A stretch of DNA of 64,000 nt, taken from Pedobacter duraquae. Its GTDB lineage: Bacteria > Bacteroidota > Bacteroidia > Sphingobacteriales > Sphingobacteriaceae. The notes beneath the pieces were generated by a model. The model saw only the letters and a program-made list of their open reading frames with translations, did no database searches and was not told where the DNA came from. Of this stretch, positions 10,851 through 31,683 are shown piece after piece (position 1 is the first letter of the stretch; every line of letters starts with the position of its first letter). The position numbers and the translations under genes were made by a program. The DNA lies in contig NZ_SNWM01000003.1 of assembly GCF_004362245.1 (NCBI RefSeq), positions 806,001 through 870,000 on the forward strand, in the 5' to 3' direction.

Positions 10851-11399
10851 ATGACAGAACTCGATAAAAATCACCCAATTTCAGATGATCTAGTTTTGAA
10901 TAAAATTTACCATATCCGGGGTGTAAAAGTTATGCTAGATAAAGACCTGGCGGCAATGTACGAAGTGCAGACGCGCGATTTAAACAAGGCGGTAGGCCGA
11001 AACATCAAGCGTTTTCCTGCGGATGATTTTATGTTTCAGCTTACAAATAGTGAGTTTGAAAACTTGATGTTCCATTTTGGAACATCAAGTTGGGGAGGAA
11101 CCCGTAAGCTTCCATATGCTTTTACCGAGCAGGGTGTGGCCATGCTTTCTGGTCTGCTCAAAAGTGATAGAGCTATTGCTGTAAACATTATGGTTATGCG
11201 GGTATTTACGCAAACCAGACGGATGCTTGCCGACACTACCGAGATCCGTTTGGAGATTGAGAAAATAAAAAATCACCTGGATCATCAAGACAAAAATTTA
11301 GAGGTTGTTTTTAATTGTTTGGACGAGCTACTGGAGAAACGGGATGAACCTAACCCACCGCGGGTAAGAATTGGTTTTAAACCAGATTTTCTGGCATAA
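10851..11399 (+). CDS. ORF6N domain DNA-binding protein
   Basis: 182 residues. Residues about 10-95 match the ORF6N domain: IYHIRGVKVMLDKDLAAMY, LNKAVGRNIKRFP, and PYAFTEQGVAMLSGLL. The C-terminal third is charged and probably helical (EIRLEIEKIKNHLDHQDKNLEVV), suggesting oligomerisation. ORF6N proteins are found in phages and mobile islands and also as isolated genes in Bacteroidota; they are thought to bind DNA, but targets are mostly unknown. No phage or integration genes lie nearby. The four 11-bp repeats upstream are a possible binding site. Confidence 0.88.
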   Translation: MTELDKNHPISDDLVLNKIYHIRGVKVMLDKDLAAMYEVQTRDLNKAVGRNIKRFPADDFMFQLTNSEFENLMFHFGTSSWGGTRKLPYAFTEQGVAMLSGLLKSDRAIAVNIMVMRVFTQTRRMLADTTEIRLEIEKIKNHLDHQDKNLEVVFNCLDELLEKRDEPNPPRVRIGFKPDFLA

Positions 11400-28436: not shown

Positions 28437-28631
28437 CAGCCTCGCGTTTGAAATTTATGACTCCGTACGTGATGAATTGATGACTAGTTTCGCTACGGTT
28501 GGTTCGTCTAAAAATATCGCCTTAGATCGACGGAATTTTTCCTTAAGATATTCAATTAAACATCAGATAATCTGTTATTTGCCCTTGTTTTTGTCGATAT
28601 ATTTTCTTATCTTATACTACTCAATTAATGA

Positions 28632-28943
28632 GTTACCACGCTAAGAAAGCGGAAAGATCATGACGGAAGCGGCTTTACACCGGTCAATAAGCAGCAACCG
28701 TCCGTACGGATTAATCGGCTGGATTGACATGGAGTAAAGGACGAAGGGATTTCGCTTCCGGGCATGTTCTTTGACGTATTGGAAATTGGATAGGTGGATT
28801 GCATGCGGAGCTGATGAGCACCTATCCGTGTAAGTAATCAAAGGTATTGATGTATGTCAGGAGATAGATCGACTTTGGTTAGTAGCGGGGATCAGGACGA
28901 TCCAATTAAACAGCTTTGCCCGGATACGGGCAAAGCTGTTTTT
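28632..28943 (+). ncRNA. Candidate structured RNA with terminator (6S-like rod, or leader of purF)
   Basis: A rod-like hairpin is built from stacked complementary blocks: 28653-28657/28768-28772, 28659-28662/28763-28766, 28664-28671/28753-28760 (CGGAAGCG with CGCTTCCG), 28673-28678/28734-28739, 28683-28688/28723-28728 and 28692-28695/28718-28721. Its inner part has a lopsided bubble (13 bases on the 3' side). A second hairpin pairs GGATAGGTG (28788-28796) with CACCTATCC (28819-28827). GTTACCACG at 28632-28640 can pair with 28827-28838 to close both. GGATC/GATCC (28889-28903) and a 14-bp terminator complete the unit. The transcript probably starts near 28610, after a weak promoter-like TATATTTT at 28598. 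No match to RNase P, tmRNA or SRP RNA core sequences was seen. A 6S RNA is a reasonable guess because of the rod with bubble; a purF leader is the alternative. Confidence 0.5.
28909..28943 (+). terminator. Strong terminator ending the candidate RNA
   Basis: AACAGCTTTGCCCG (28909-28922) pairs perfectly with CGGGCAAAGCTGTT (28927-28940), loop GATA, followed by Ts on the plus strand. No protein gene ends just upstream, so it must end an RNA transcript or act as an attenuator for purF. Confidence 0.88.
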
Positions 28944-29051
28944 GAAACGATAGTCACAGGGGTGTGTATGCATGCCGGAAAATTGACGGTCAGATTATTT
29001 AAGCATGTTATTATTGTCTATTTCTTTCTAGGTTCTGATTTTTATTAGGCG

Positions 29052-29059
29052 TAAATTTG
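29052..29059 (+). promoter_or_regulatory. -7 box of the purF-type gene
   Basis: TAAATTTG (TAnnTTTG) ends 18 bases before the ATG at 29078. It implies purF can be transcribed independently of the structured RNA upstream. Confidence 0.45.
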
Positions 29060-29077
29060 CCGCTCAAACAACACACC

Positions 29078-30979
29078 ATGAGTGACCAGATTAAACACGA
29101 GTGCGGGATCGCCTTCATTCGTCTTCTCAAACCTCTTTCTTTCTATCAGGAAAAATACGGCACAGCACTTTACGGACTCAATAAGTTGTATCTTCTCATG
29201 GAGAAGCAACACAACAGGGGCCAGGATGGCGCAGGTATTGCAACGATTAAACTAGATGTGAAGCCGGGACACCGGTACATCAGCAGATATCGGTCGATGG
29301 CACAAAATGCTGTGGCCGATATTTTTGGTTATGTGCAAAATAAGTTTGTAAATATCCAGAATGAAACGCCAGAACTGATGCAGGATGCCGAGTGGCTGAA
29401 AGCTAATGTGAGCTTCATTGGCGAGGTATTGCTAGGGCACTTGCGTTATGGTACCCATGGCCAGAACAGCATTGAAAACTGTCACCCTTTTCTTCGTCAG
29501 AATAACTGGATGACACGTAACCTGGTTATTGCCGGTAACTTCAACATGACTAATGTTGATGAATTATTGGAGCAGTTGTATGAACTTGGTCAGCATCCAA
29601 AAGAGCAGGCAGATACCGTTACTGTGCTTGAAAAGATTGGTCATTTTCTGGATGATGAAAATCAACAGCTATTTGATGCCTATAAAAAAGAGGGTCTGGA
29701 CAACGTTGAGATCACGCATAAAATTTCTGATGGCCTGAACATTGGTCATATATTGCGCAGATCAGCTAAAACCTGGGATGGTGGTTATGCCATATCTGGT
29801 ATTGTGGGTAATGGTGATGCTTTTGTGTTACGTGACCCTGCTGGTATCAGACCTGCATTTTATTATGCAGATGATGAAATCGTTGTTGCTGCCTCGGAGC
29901 GGCCGGCTATTCAGACAGCTTTCAATATTCCATTTAAAGATGTTAAAGAGATCGAACCTGGTCATGCGTTAATTGTTAAAAAGAATGGTAAAGTAACTCA
30001 GGAAGTTTTCCGCGAGCCTACAGAGAAACGTGCATGTTCATTTGAGCGTATTTATTTCTCAAGAGGTAGTGACGCTGAGATCTATAAAGAAAGAAAACAT
30101 TTAGGAAGACTGTTGATCCCTCAAATTTTGAAATCAGTAAATAGTGACCTTAAAAATACTGTATTCTCTTTTATACCAAATACTGCAGAAGTTTCCTTTT
30201 ACGGCATGGTAGAAGGTGTTCATAAACACATCAAGTCAGTACAGAAGGATGCACTGATTAATAATAAAGAAACGCTTACAGACGAGCAATTGGATGAATT
30301 GCTTTCTATGGCGCCGCGAGTTGAAAAACTTGCGATTAAAGATGTGAAGTTGCGTACATTTATTACTCAGGATGCAGATCGCTCTGATATGGTTGCACAC
30401 GTTTACGACACTACGTATGGTGTAATCAGGAACCATACAGATACTTTGGTTGCTGTAGACGACTCTATTGTTCGTGGTACAACATTAAAACAAAGTATCA
30501 TTAAGATTATTGATCGTTTACATCCTAAAAAGATTGTAATTGTGTCTTCTGCACCGCAGATTAGATATCCAGATTGTTATGGTATCGATATGTCTAAAAT
30601 GGGACAGTTTGTTGCTTTTGAAGCGGCAATCCAGTTGTTGCATGAAAGGGGATTATCTCACATCATCGATGAGGTTTACGAAAAGTGTAAAGCTTCTCTG
30701 TTGTTGCCAAAAGAGGAGATCGTTAATCATGTTAAAGATATCTACAGGCCGTTTAAGCAAGAGGAGATTTCTGCACAGATAACCAAGATCATTACACCTG
30801 CTGATACTGTTGCTGAGGTCGAGATCATCTATCAGACACTTGACAACTTACATATTGCTTGCCCTAACCATAAAGGTGACTGGTATTTCTCTGGTAACTA
30901 TCCGACACCGGGAGGAAATAAGGTTGTTAATAAAGCATTCGTAAACTGGAAAGAAGGAAATAACCAACGCGCTTATTAA
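29078..30979 (+). CDS. Amidophosphoribosyltransferase-type protein (long PurF)
   Basis: 633 residues from the ATG at 29078, longer than classical PurF (about 470-510). MSDQIKHECGIAFIRLL places the glutaminase cysteine behind a short propeptide, as in other PurF enzymes; RGQDGAGIATIK, LRYGTHGQNSIENCHPF and AGNFNMTN are class II amidotransferase blocks. The PRPP-binding loop LVAVDDSIVRGTTLKQSI is intact at about residue 465. Extra sequence sits between the two parts, including a segment after NTVFSFIPNTAEVSFYGM. PurF catalyses the first step of purine synthesis. Long versions occur in Bacteroidota beside a normal PurF, so this may be a paralogue of altered role. Confidence 0.85.
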   Translation: MSDQIKHECGIAFIRLLKPLSFYQEKYGTALYGLNKLYLLMEKQHNRGQDGAGIATIKLDVKPGHRYISRYRSMAQNAVADIFGYVQNKFVNIQNETPELMQDAEWLKANVSFIGEVLLGHLRYGTHGQNSIENCHPFLRQNNWMTRNLVIAGNFNMTNVDELLEQLYELGQHPKEQADTVTVLEKIGHFLDDENQQLFDAYKKEGLDNVEITHKISDGLNIGHILRRSAKTWDGGYAISGIVGNGDAFVLRDPAGIRPAFYYADDEIVVAASERPAIQTAFNIPFKDVKEIEPGHALIVKKNGKVTQEVFREPTEKRACSFERIYFSRGSDAEIYKERKHLGRLLIPQILKSVNSDLKNTVFSFIPNTAEVSFYGMVEGVHKHIKSVQKDALINNKETLTDEQLDELLSMAPRVEKLAIKDVKLRTFITQDADRSDMVAHVYDTTYGVIRNHTDTLVAVDDSIVRGTTLKQSIIKIIDRLHPKKIVIVSSAPQIRYPDCYGIDMSKMGQFVAFEAAIQLLHERGLSHIIDEVYEKCKASLLLPKEEIVNHVKDIYRPFKQEEISAQITKIITPADTVAEVEIIYQTLDNLHIACPNHKGDWYFSGNYPTPGGNKVVNKAFVNWKEGNNQRAY

Positions 30980-30995
30980 TTAAGCTGATCCTTAT

Positions 30996-31038
30996 AAAAA
31001 GAAAGCGCAGTCCTGATTCAGGAATGCGCTTTCTTTTT
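30996..31038. terminator. Bidirectional terminator between purF and the LysE gene
   Basis: AAAAAGAAAGCGCA (30996-31009) pairs with TGCGCTTTCTTTTT (31025-31038), with an inner TCCTGA/TCAGGA stem. A-runs and T-runs on both sides allow it to serve both convergent genes. Confidence 0.9.
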
Positions 31039-31050
31039 ATACCTGGATTT

Positions 31051-31683
31051 CTATTTCAGTTTATAATATTTTAAGGCTACTTCTACGAAAAGCCTGATGG
31101 CAAATATGATGATGACGCCTCCGGCAATGCGGTTCAAGTTTCGAATGGTCTTTTCTTTGATCTTATAGCGCAGTTTGGCTGCGTAATATGTTTTAACAGC
31201 ATCTACTGAAAGTTGTGTAGCCATGGCGATCACGAAGAATACAACCTTCTCAGTCATCTCATAGTGCAATTGCACGGATACAATGCCACCTACCATAATC
31301 CAGAACATTAATGTAGTAGGAGAGAGCAGGCACATTAGAAATCCTTTAATAATATAACCTCTTTTTTTAATCTTAAGGGTTTCTGAGATCTCATAGTTGA
31401 CTTTAACCTTATTGATCAGGTAATATAAACCGACGCCAAGAAGAAAAAGGCCGCCGATGATTCCAATATACATATTGTATTTGGAGTTATAATTAACAAA
31501 CTGTGAACTGAAAATGGTTGCACTGATGAAAATAATATCACTGAAAATCACACCAATAGCCAATGAAAAGCCAGCTTTAAAGCCCTTTTCAATACTGGTT
31601 TTTATCATGGAAAAGAAAACCGGCCCCGTAAGAAAAGAAAATAAAATCCCTGCACCAATCCCCTGTAATATCGCTTCAAACAT
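31051..31683 (-). CDS. LysE-family transporter
   Basis: 210 residues, about six hydrophobic helices. GIGAGILFSFLTGPVFFSMIKTSIEKG at the start is the LysE/RhtB pattern, and FLMCLLSPTTLMFWIMVGG the second-half motif. These inner-membrane proteins export amino acids or related compounds; the substrate is unknown. Single gene, convergent with purF. Confidence 0.88.
   Translation of the reverse strand: MFEAILQGIGAGILFSFLTGPVFFSMIKTSIEKGFKAGFSLAIGVIFSDIIFISATIFSSQFVNYNSKYNMYIGIIGGLFLLGVGLYYLINKVKVNYEISETLKIKKRGYIIKGFLMCLLSPTTLMFWIMVGGIVSVQLHYEMTEKVVFFVIAMATQLSVDAVKTYYAAKLRYKIKEKTIRNLNRIAGGVIIIFAIRLFVEVALKYYKLK

Follow-up and report, generated by a model that had tools for sequence, protein, structure and literature searches.

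A probable independent gene for a strongly structured RNA, with no relatives known, upstream of purF in Pedobacter duraquae

The stretch between murI and purF in Pedobacter duraquae raises the question of what a gap without a protein gene, rich in self-complementary blocks, may encode. The gap was analysed within a window of 64 kb, the whole stretch of DNA studied here, and all positions refer to this window. A preliminary description, made from the letters alone, had proposed a structured RNA in a protein-free gap. The features of the locus are as follows.

28557–28616, + strand: segment similar to the stretch 5' of IS4-like transposase genes in genomes of the genus (over 60 columns, 46/60 identities with G157 and 44/60 with G083)
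28564–28574, no strand: perfect 11-nt dyad CAGAT-A-ATCTG, located 5' of the promoter; at this place CTGAT-N-ATCAG is found in the IS relatives
28585–28615, + strand: predicted promoter, with -33 TTG (28585–28587), 20 nt and -7 TATCTTAT (28608–28615), from sequence and a generally known consensus
28620–28943, + strand: predicted RNA transcript of about 320 nt, between murI and purF
28620–28632, + strand: 5' hairpin CUCA-AUUAA-UGAG, in the full-length fold
28653–28772, + strand: long rod whose 12-nt loop GACGAAGGGATT (28740–28751) is on one side only, in the predicted fold
28788–28827, + strand: hairpin with a 9-bp stem and a weakly paired 22-nt loop with two GGA, in the predicted fold
28832–28884, + strand: further hairpin with loop GUCAGGAG, in the predicted fold
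28889–28903, + strand: small hairpin GGAUC-AGGAC-GAUCC, in the predicted fold
28908–28943, + strand: intrinsic terminator with a perfect 15-bp stem, a 4-nt loop and 5 T ending the 3' arm, from the inverted-repeat stem
29019–29080, + strand: purF promoter and short leader, with TAAATTTG at 29052–29059, from genus-wide conservation; separate from the RNA

Folding of the segment between murI and purF

The segment 28620–28943 is the top-ranked stretch of about 322 nt for structure in the 64-kb window and in 391 kb of further sequence from this genome. The fold of 28620–28950 has an energy of -119.9 kcal/mol, compared with a mean of -86.8 for shuffled sequences (z = -7.45), and none of 100 shuffles was equally stable. 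When windows of 322 nt on both strands were corrected for GC content, the stability of the RNA was matched by none of 1592 in the 64 kb and by none of 4814 in the further 391 kb. The extreme folding is on the + strand, and the flanks of the RNA are without structure (z = 1.43 and 0.56). No long reading frame spans the region, and its six-frame translation, with X at stops, gave no Pfam match. A conserved protein frame, which would have spoken against the proposal of a structured RNA in a protein-free gap, is thus not found, and the z value together with the lack of any protein signal bears the proposal out. A broken protein gene in the gap was rejected as well, because Pfam and plasmid tblastn searches were without match.

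The predicted fold consists of a rod, two hairpins, a small hairpin with a GGA loop, and the 15-bp terminator. From the 5' end, the elements of the predicted transcript are the 5' hairpin, a small stem, the rod, the 9-bp hairpin, the hairpin at about 28832–28884, GGAUC-AGGAC-GAUCC, and the terminator. All complementary blocks named in the preliminary description are present in the sequence. The rod that it placed at 28653–28772 is confirmed by a z of -4.80, none of 200 dinucleotide shuffles being equally stable; by itself the rod is not unique in the window, where equal stability is reached by 13 of 3194 windows 133 nt long, several of them ordinary terminators. The 9-bp hairpin (arms 28788–28796 and 28819–28827) and the small hairpin at 28889–28903 also recur as described. 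The hairpin at about 28832–28884 had been overlooked; the z value for 28832–28904 is -3.26. A closing stem between 28632–28640 and 28827–28838 forms only if folding begins at 28632, and the full-length fold has the 5' hairpin at 28620–28632 instead. In the modelled full transcript this hairpin competes with the closing stem for the left arm, which makes the stem weak and doubtful. A hammerhead-like CUGAUGAG at about 28811–28818 was considered and rejected, the remaining core being absent on inspection.

Transcription signals and the likeness to insertion sequences

The structured segment is framed by the predicted promoter just upstream and the terminator just downstream. The promoter consensus of the Bacteroidetes is TTTG/TAnnTTTG, and the -7 box agrees with the TAnnTT part only. 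The terminator had been recognized earlier with a stem of 14 bp; the stem is in fact perfect over 15 bp (arms 28908–28922 and 28927–28941). Its T-run is short and lies partly within the stem, and a terminator scan did not list it. The RNA has its own promoter and its own terminator, after which a separately conserved purF promoter follows; this argues for an independent RNA rather than a purF leader. The preliminary description had leaned the same way, and the relatives, which have the purF promoter but no such RNA, agree with it. Judged from the sequence, there is good support for a transcription unit of its own.

We consider it fairly probable that the locus is a free-standing, lineage-specific small-RNA gene with a primary-sigma start, a transcript of rod and hairpins, a terminator and an action in trans, its promoter possibly being derived from an insertion sequence (IS). 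Starting near 28620 from the promoter at 28585–28615, RNA polymerase carrying the primary sigma factor would yield a transcript of about 320 nt, which is predicted to fold into the rod and several hairpins, and would end at 28908–28943. For purF, its own promoter would then be used. Such a stable RNA would most likely work in trans, with exposed GGA-rich loops that may bind a protein or the start regions of mRNAs. The gene would have arisen or arrived in this lineage only, with a promoter that resembles the region 5' of an IS4-like transposase gene and perhaps stems from it. Bacteroides thetaiotaomicron has intergenic small RNAs (PMC7366714), such as the RbpB-bound FopS family (PMC11697453), and the likeness to these is that of a free-standing small-RNA gene in the Bacteroidetes. 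FopS is a conserved multicopy family, whereas the present RNA occurs once and no relatives of it were found. If expressed, it would be an orphan structured RNA, invisible to family-based annotation; the combination of structure, promoter and terminator can point to such an RNA gene even where there is no homologue.

The segment at 28557–28616 that carries the promoter has a similar match in G096 and a weaker one in G097 at contig ends. The transposase of G083 contains a DDE_Tnp_1 domain, and its element has inverted repeats. The match to the IS flank stands well clear of the background: the runner-up site in the window reaches 33/60, compared with 46/60, and a search of 391 kb of the same genome with 28557–28616 gave 35/60 at best. 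The strong alignment ends at about the expected transcript start. The 11-nt dyad is palindromic in the window, in G157 and in G083, even though its second base pair differs (CAGAT/ATCTG and CTGAT/ATCAG).

The likeness to the IS4-like (DDE_Tnp_1) elements of the genus is therefore that of a 60-nt 5' flank with dyad and promoter; the locus differs in having no terminal inverted repeats and no transposase, and a structured RNA replaces the gene. The match would be compatible with descent of the promoter from such an element as well as with strong convergence, and we infer descent from the resemblance. If the RNA is expressed, a plausible IS origin of the promoter would make the locus a testable case of the emergence of new small-RNA genes in bacteria. 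The whole locus could also be a mobile-element relic, left after an IS4-like element, or a non-autonomous derivative of one, had entered the space between murI and purF and decayed, so that the structure is a by-product without RNA function. This would account for the resemblance of 28557–28616 to transposase flanks and for a gap some 500 nt longer than in many relatives. We nevertheless regard it as unlikely, because the gap contains no terminal inverted repeat, transposase trace or right end of that IS, no such transposase was found in the genome, and perfect stems of 15 and 9 bp are not a product of decay.

GGA motifs in the predicted transcript

The predicted transcript of 324 nt contains 15 GGA, about seven of which are unpaired in the predicted fold, for example in the loops AUC-AGGAC-GAU and GUCAGGAG. 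A count of 15 is attained by 0.01% of the 324-nt windows of the same genome, a density that is exceptional for it. Against dinucleotide shuffles the P value is 0.005, uncorrected and for one of 64 trinucleotides chosen afterwards, with AGC equally enriched. The excess, of modest significance on the sequence, may be taken as a lead towards a protein sponge, but not as evidence for one.

Such a sponge would act like CsrB or RsmZ, its loop GGA motifs binding many copies of an RNA-binding protein. The predicted RNA would share with CsrB, CsrC and RsmZ its length, hairpins with GGA loops, and its own promoter and terminator. It differs from them in that about half of its GGA are paired and the Csr/Rsm models of Rfam do not match; their partner CsrA is, to our knowledge, not expected in this non-flagellated phylum. 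Given also that the enrichment was noticed after the fact and is modest against dinucleotide shuffles, a sponge is decidedly unlikely. Its more specific form, a CsrB-type sponge of the Bacteroidetes born in one lineage as a GGA-rich structured RNA under an IS-derived promoter, seems very improbable to us. If true, it would be the first sponge of this kind in a phylum believed to have no CsrA, and a new RNA gene would have been seeded by an IS promoter.

Relatives, known RNA families and the purF promoter

The body of the RNA was found by blastn in none of 145 genomes of the genus and none of 400 of the order. A covariance model, built from the single sequence, found no relative in 400 genomes of the family or 395 of the phylum. 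These searches were a first look with strict filters, which remote relatives of little sequence identity could escape. The preliminary description had proposed to look for conservation of the stems; no homologue was found by blastn or by the covariance model, and hence the stems have no covariation support. The phage and plasmid collections gave no match to the RNA, and an exact-pattern scan of viral contigs gave none either. The RNA is single-copy, and in its absence from every relative searched it is unlike a housekeeping RNA.

Several matches were discarded. The covariance model gave a single weak match, in G433 of another genus (E = 2e-4), but this is antisense to a coding frame of SusD-like appearance. 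The exact-pattern scan of genome contigs returned one WOR-3 contig, which is unrelated and about the number expected by chance. The blastn matches at 28530–28570 and 28842–28884 were attributed to chance, as they lie inside coding frames or in gaps of no relation to this one.

The search against Rfam that had been proposed gave no family match; gathering and relaxed thresholds yielded chance matches only, mostly on the terminator. No tRNA or tmRNA was found in the region. The rod had been likened to 6S RNA, and the segment would then be a diverged 6S RNA whose rod captures RNA polymerase by its likeness to an open promoter. A validated 6S RNA exists in Bacteroides (PMC7366714). The likeness consists in a rod-like fold with an internal loop and an independent stable RNA. 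In addition, RF00013 finds no 6S in this genome, so that a 6S gene remains to be located; that of the genus is still unrecognized by the models. The 6S-Flavo model exceeded its cut-off in none of the 145 genomes of the genus, a weak test because it found nothing in control genomes either. The identity as 6S is not supported, however: neither RF00013 nor RF01685 matches the RNA region or the genome, the modelled bubble is one-sided (12 nt versus about 1) rather than two-sided and central, and the length is about 320 nt. A housekeeping RNA would be expected throughout the genus, and no counterpart was found in the searches of genus, family, order and phylum. A 6S gene absent from all relatives would be very odd, and we consider this identity very unlikely.

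The 50–60 nt just before purF, including TAAATTTG, were recovered in most matching genomes when the gap was searched by blastn against the 145 genomes of the genus, with mostly 82–94% identity over 50–60 nt. The purF promoter and leader are strongly conserved in the genus while the upstream neighbor varies by species. PurF is present in a single copy in each of 57 of the 59 genomes searched. The gap between murI and purF in relatives is often 75–160 nt, which leaves room for the purF promoter and not more. These short gaps and the conserved segment indicate that purF has its own conserved promoter and that with the RNA about 500 nt were added in this lineage. No comparable structure was found in the long murI-purF gaps of other species, where the best z was -3.6, with single-base shuffles, for a gap of 580 nt that contains repeated motifs. 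The rival idea of the preliminary description, a leader that senses purine or PRPP and controls purF through termination, would suit an RNA upstream of purF on the same strand with a terminator at its end, but it is very improbable because the conserved purF promoter (29019–29060) lies 3' of that terminator, which would leave the RNA outside the purF transcript, because relatives keep this promoter and lack the RNA, and because no Rfam match or conserved aptamer was found.

Other repeats were seen in the window. Direct repeats, TAGATCGAC (9 nt) and ATTCAATTAAACA/ATCCAATTAAACA (13 nt), occur in the same order in 28523–28562 and 28865–28912, at spacings of 342 and 350 nt that straddle most of the RNA; this may be chance. 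A very strong hairpin 3' of purF at 30990–31042 has a 17-bp outer stem with an A-run and a T-run (z = -8.79 for 30965–31060) and probably terminates transcription from both sides, that of purF and that of the LysE-like gene facing it. A perfect 14-bp inverted repeat (AACTTGATGTTCC...) lies at 11060–11091 within the reading frame 10851–11399, possibly an ORF6N-type gene.
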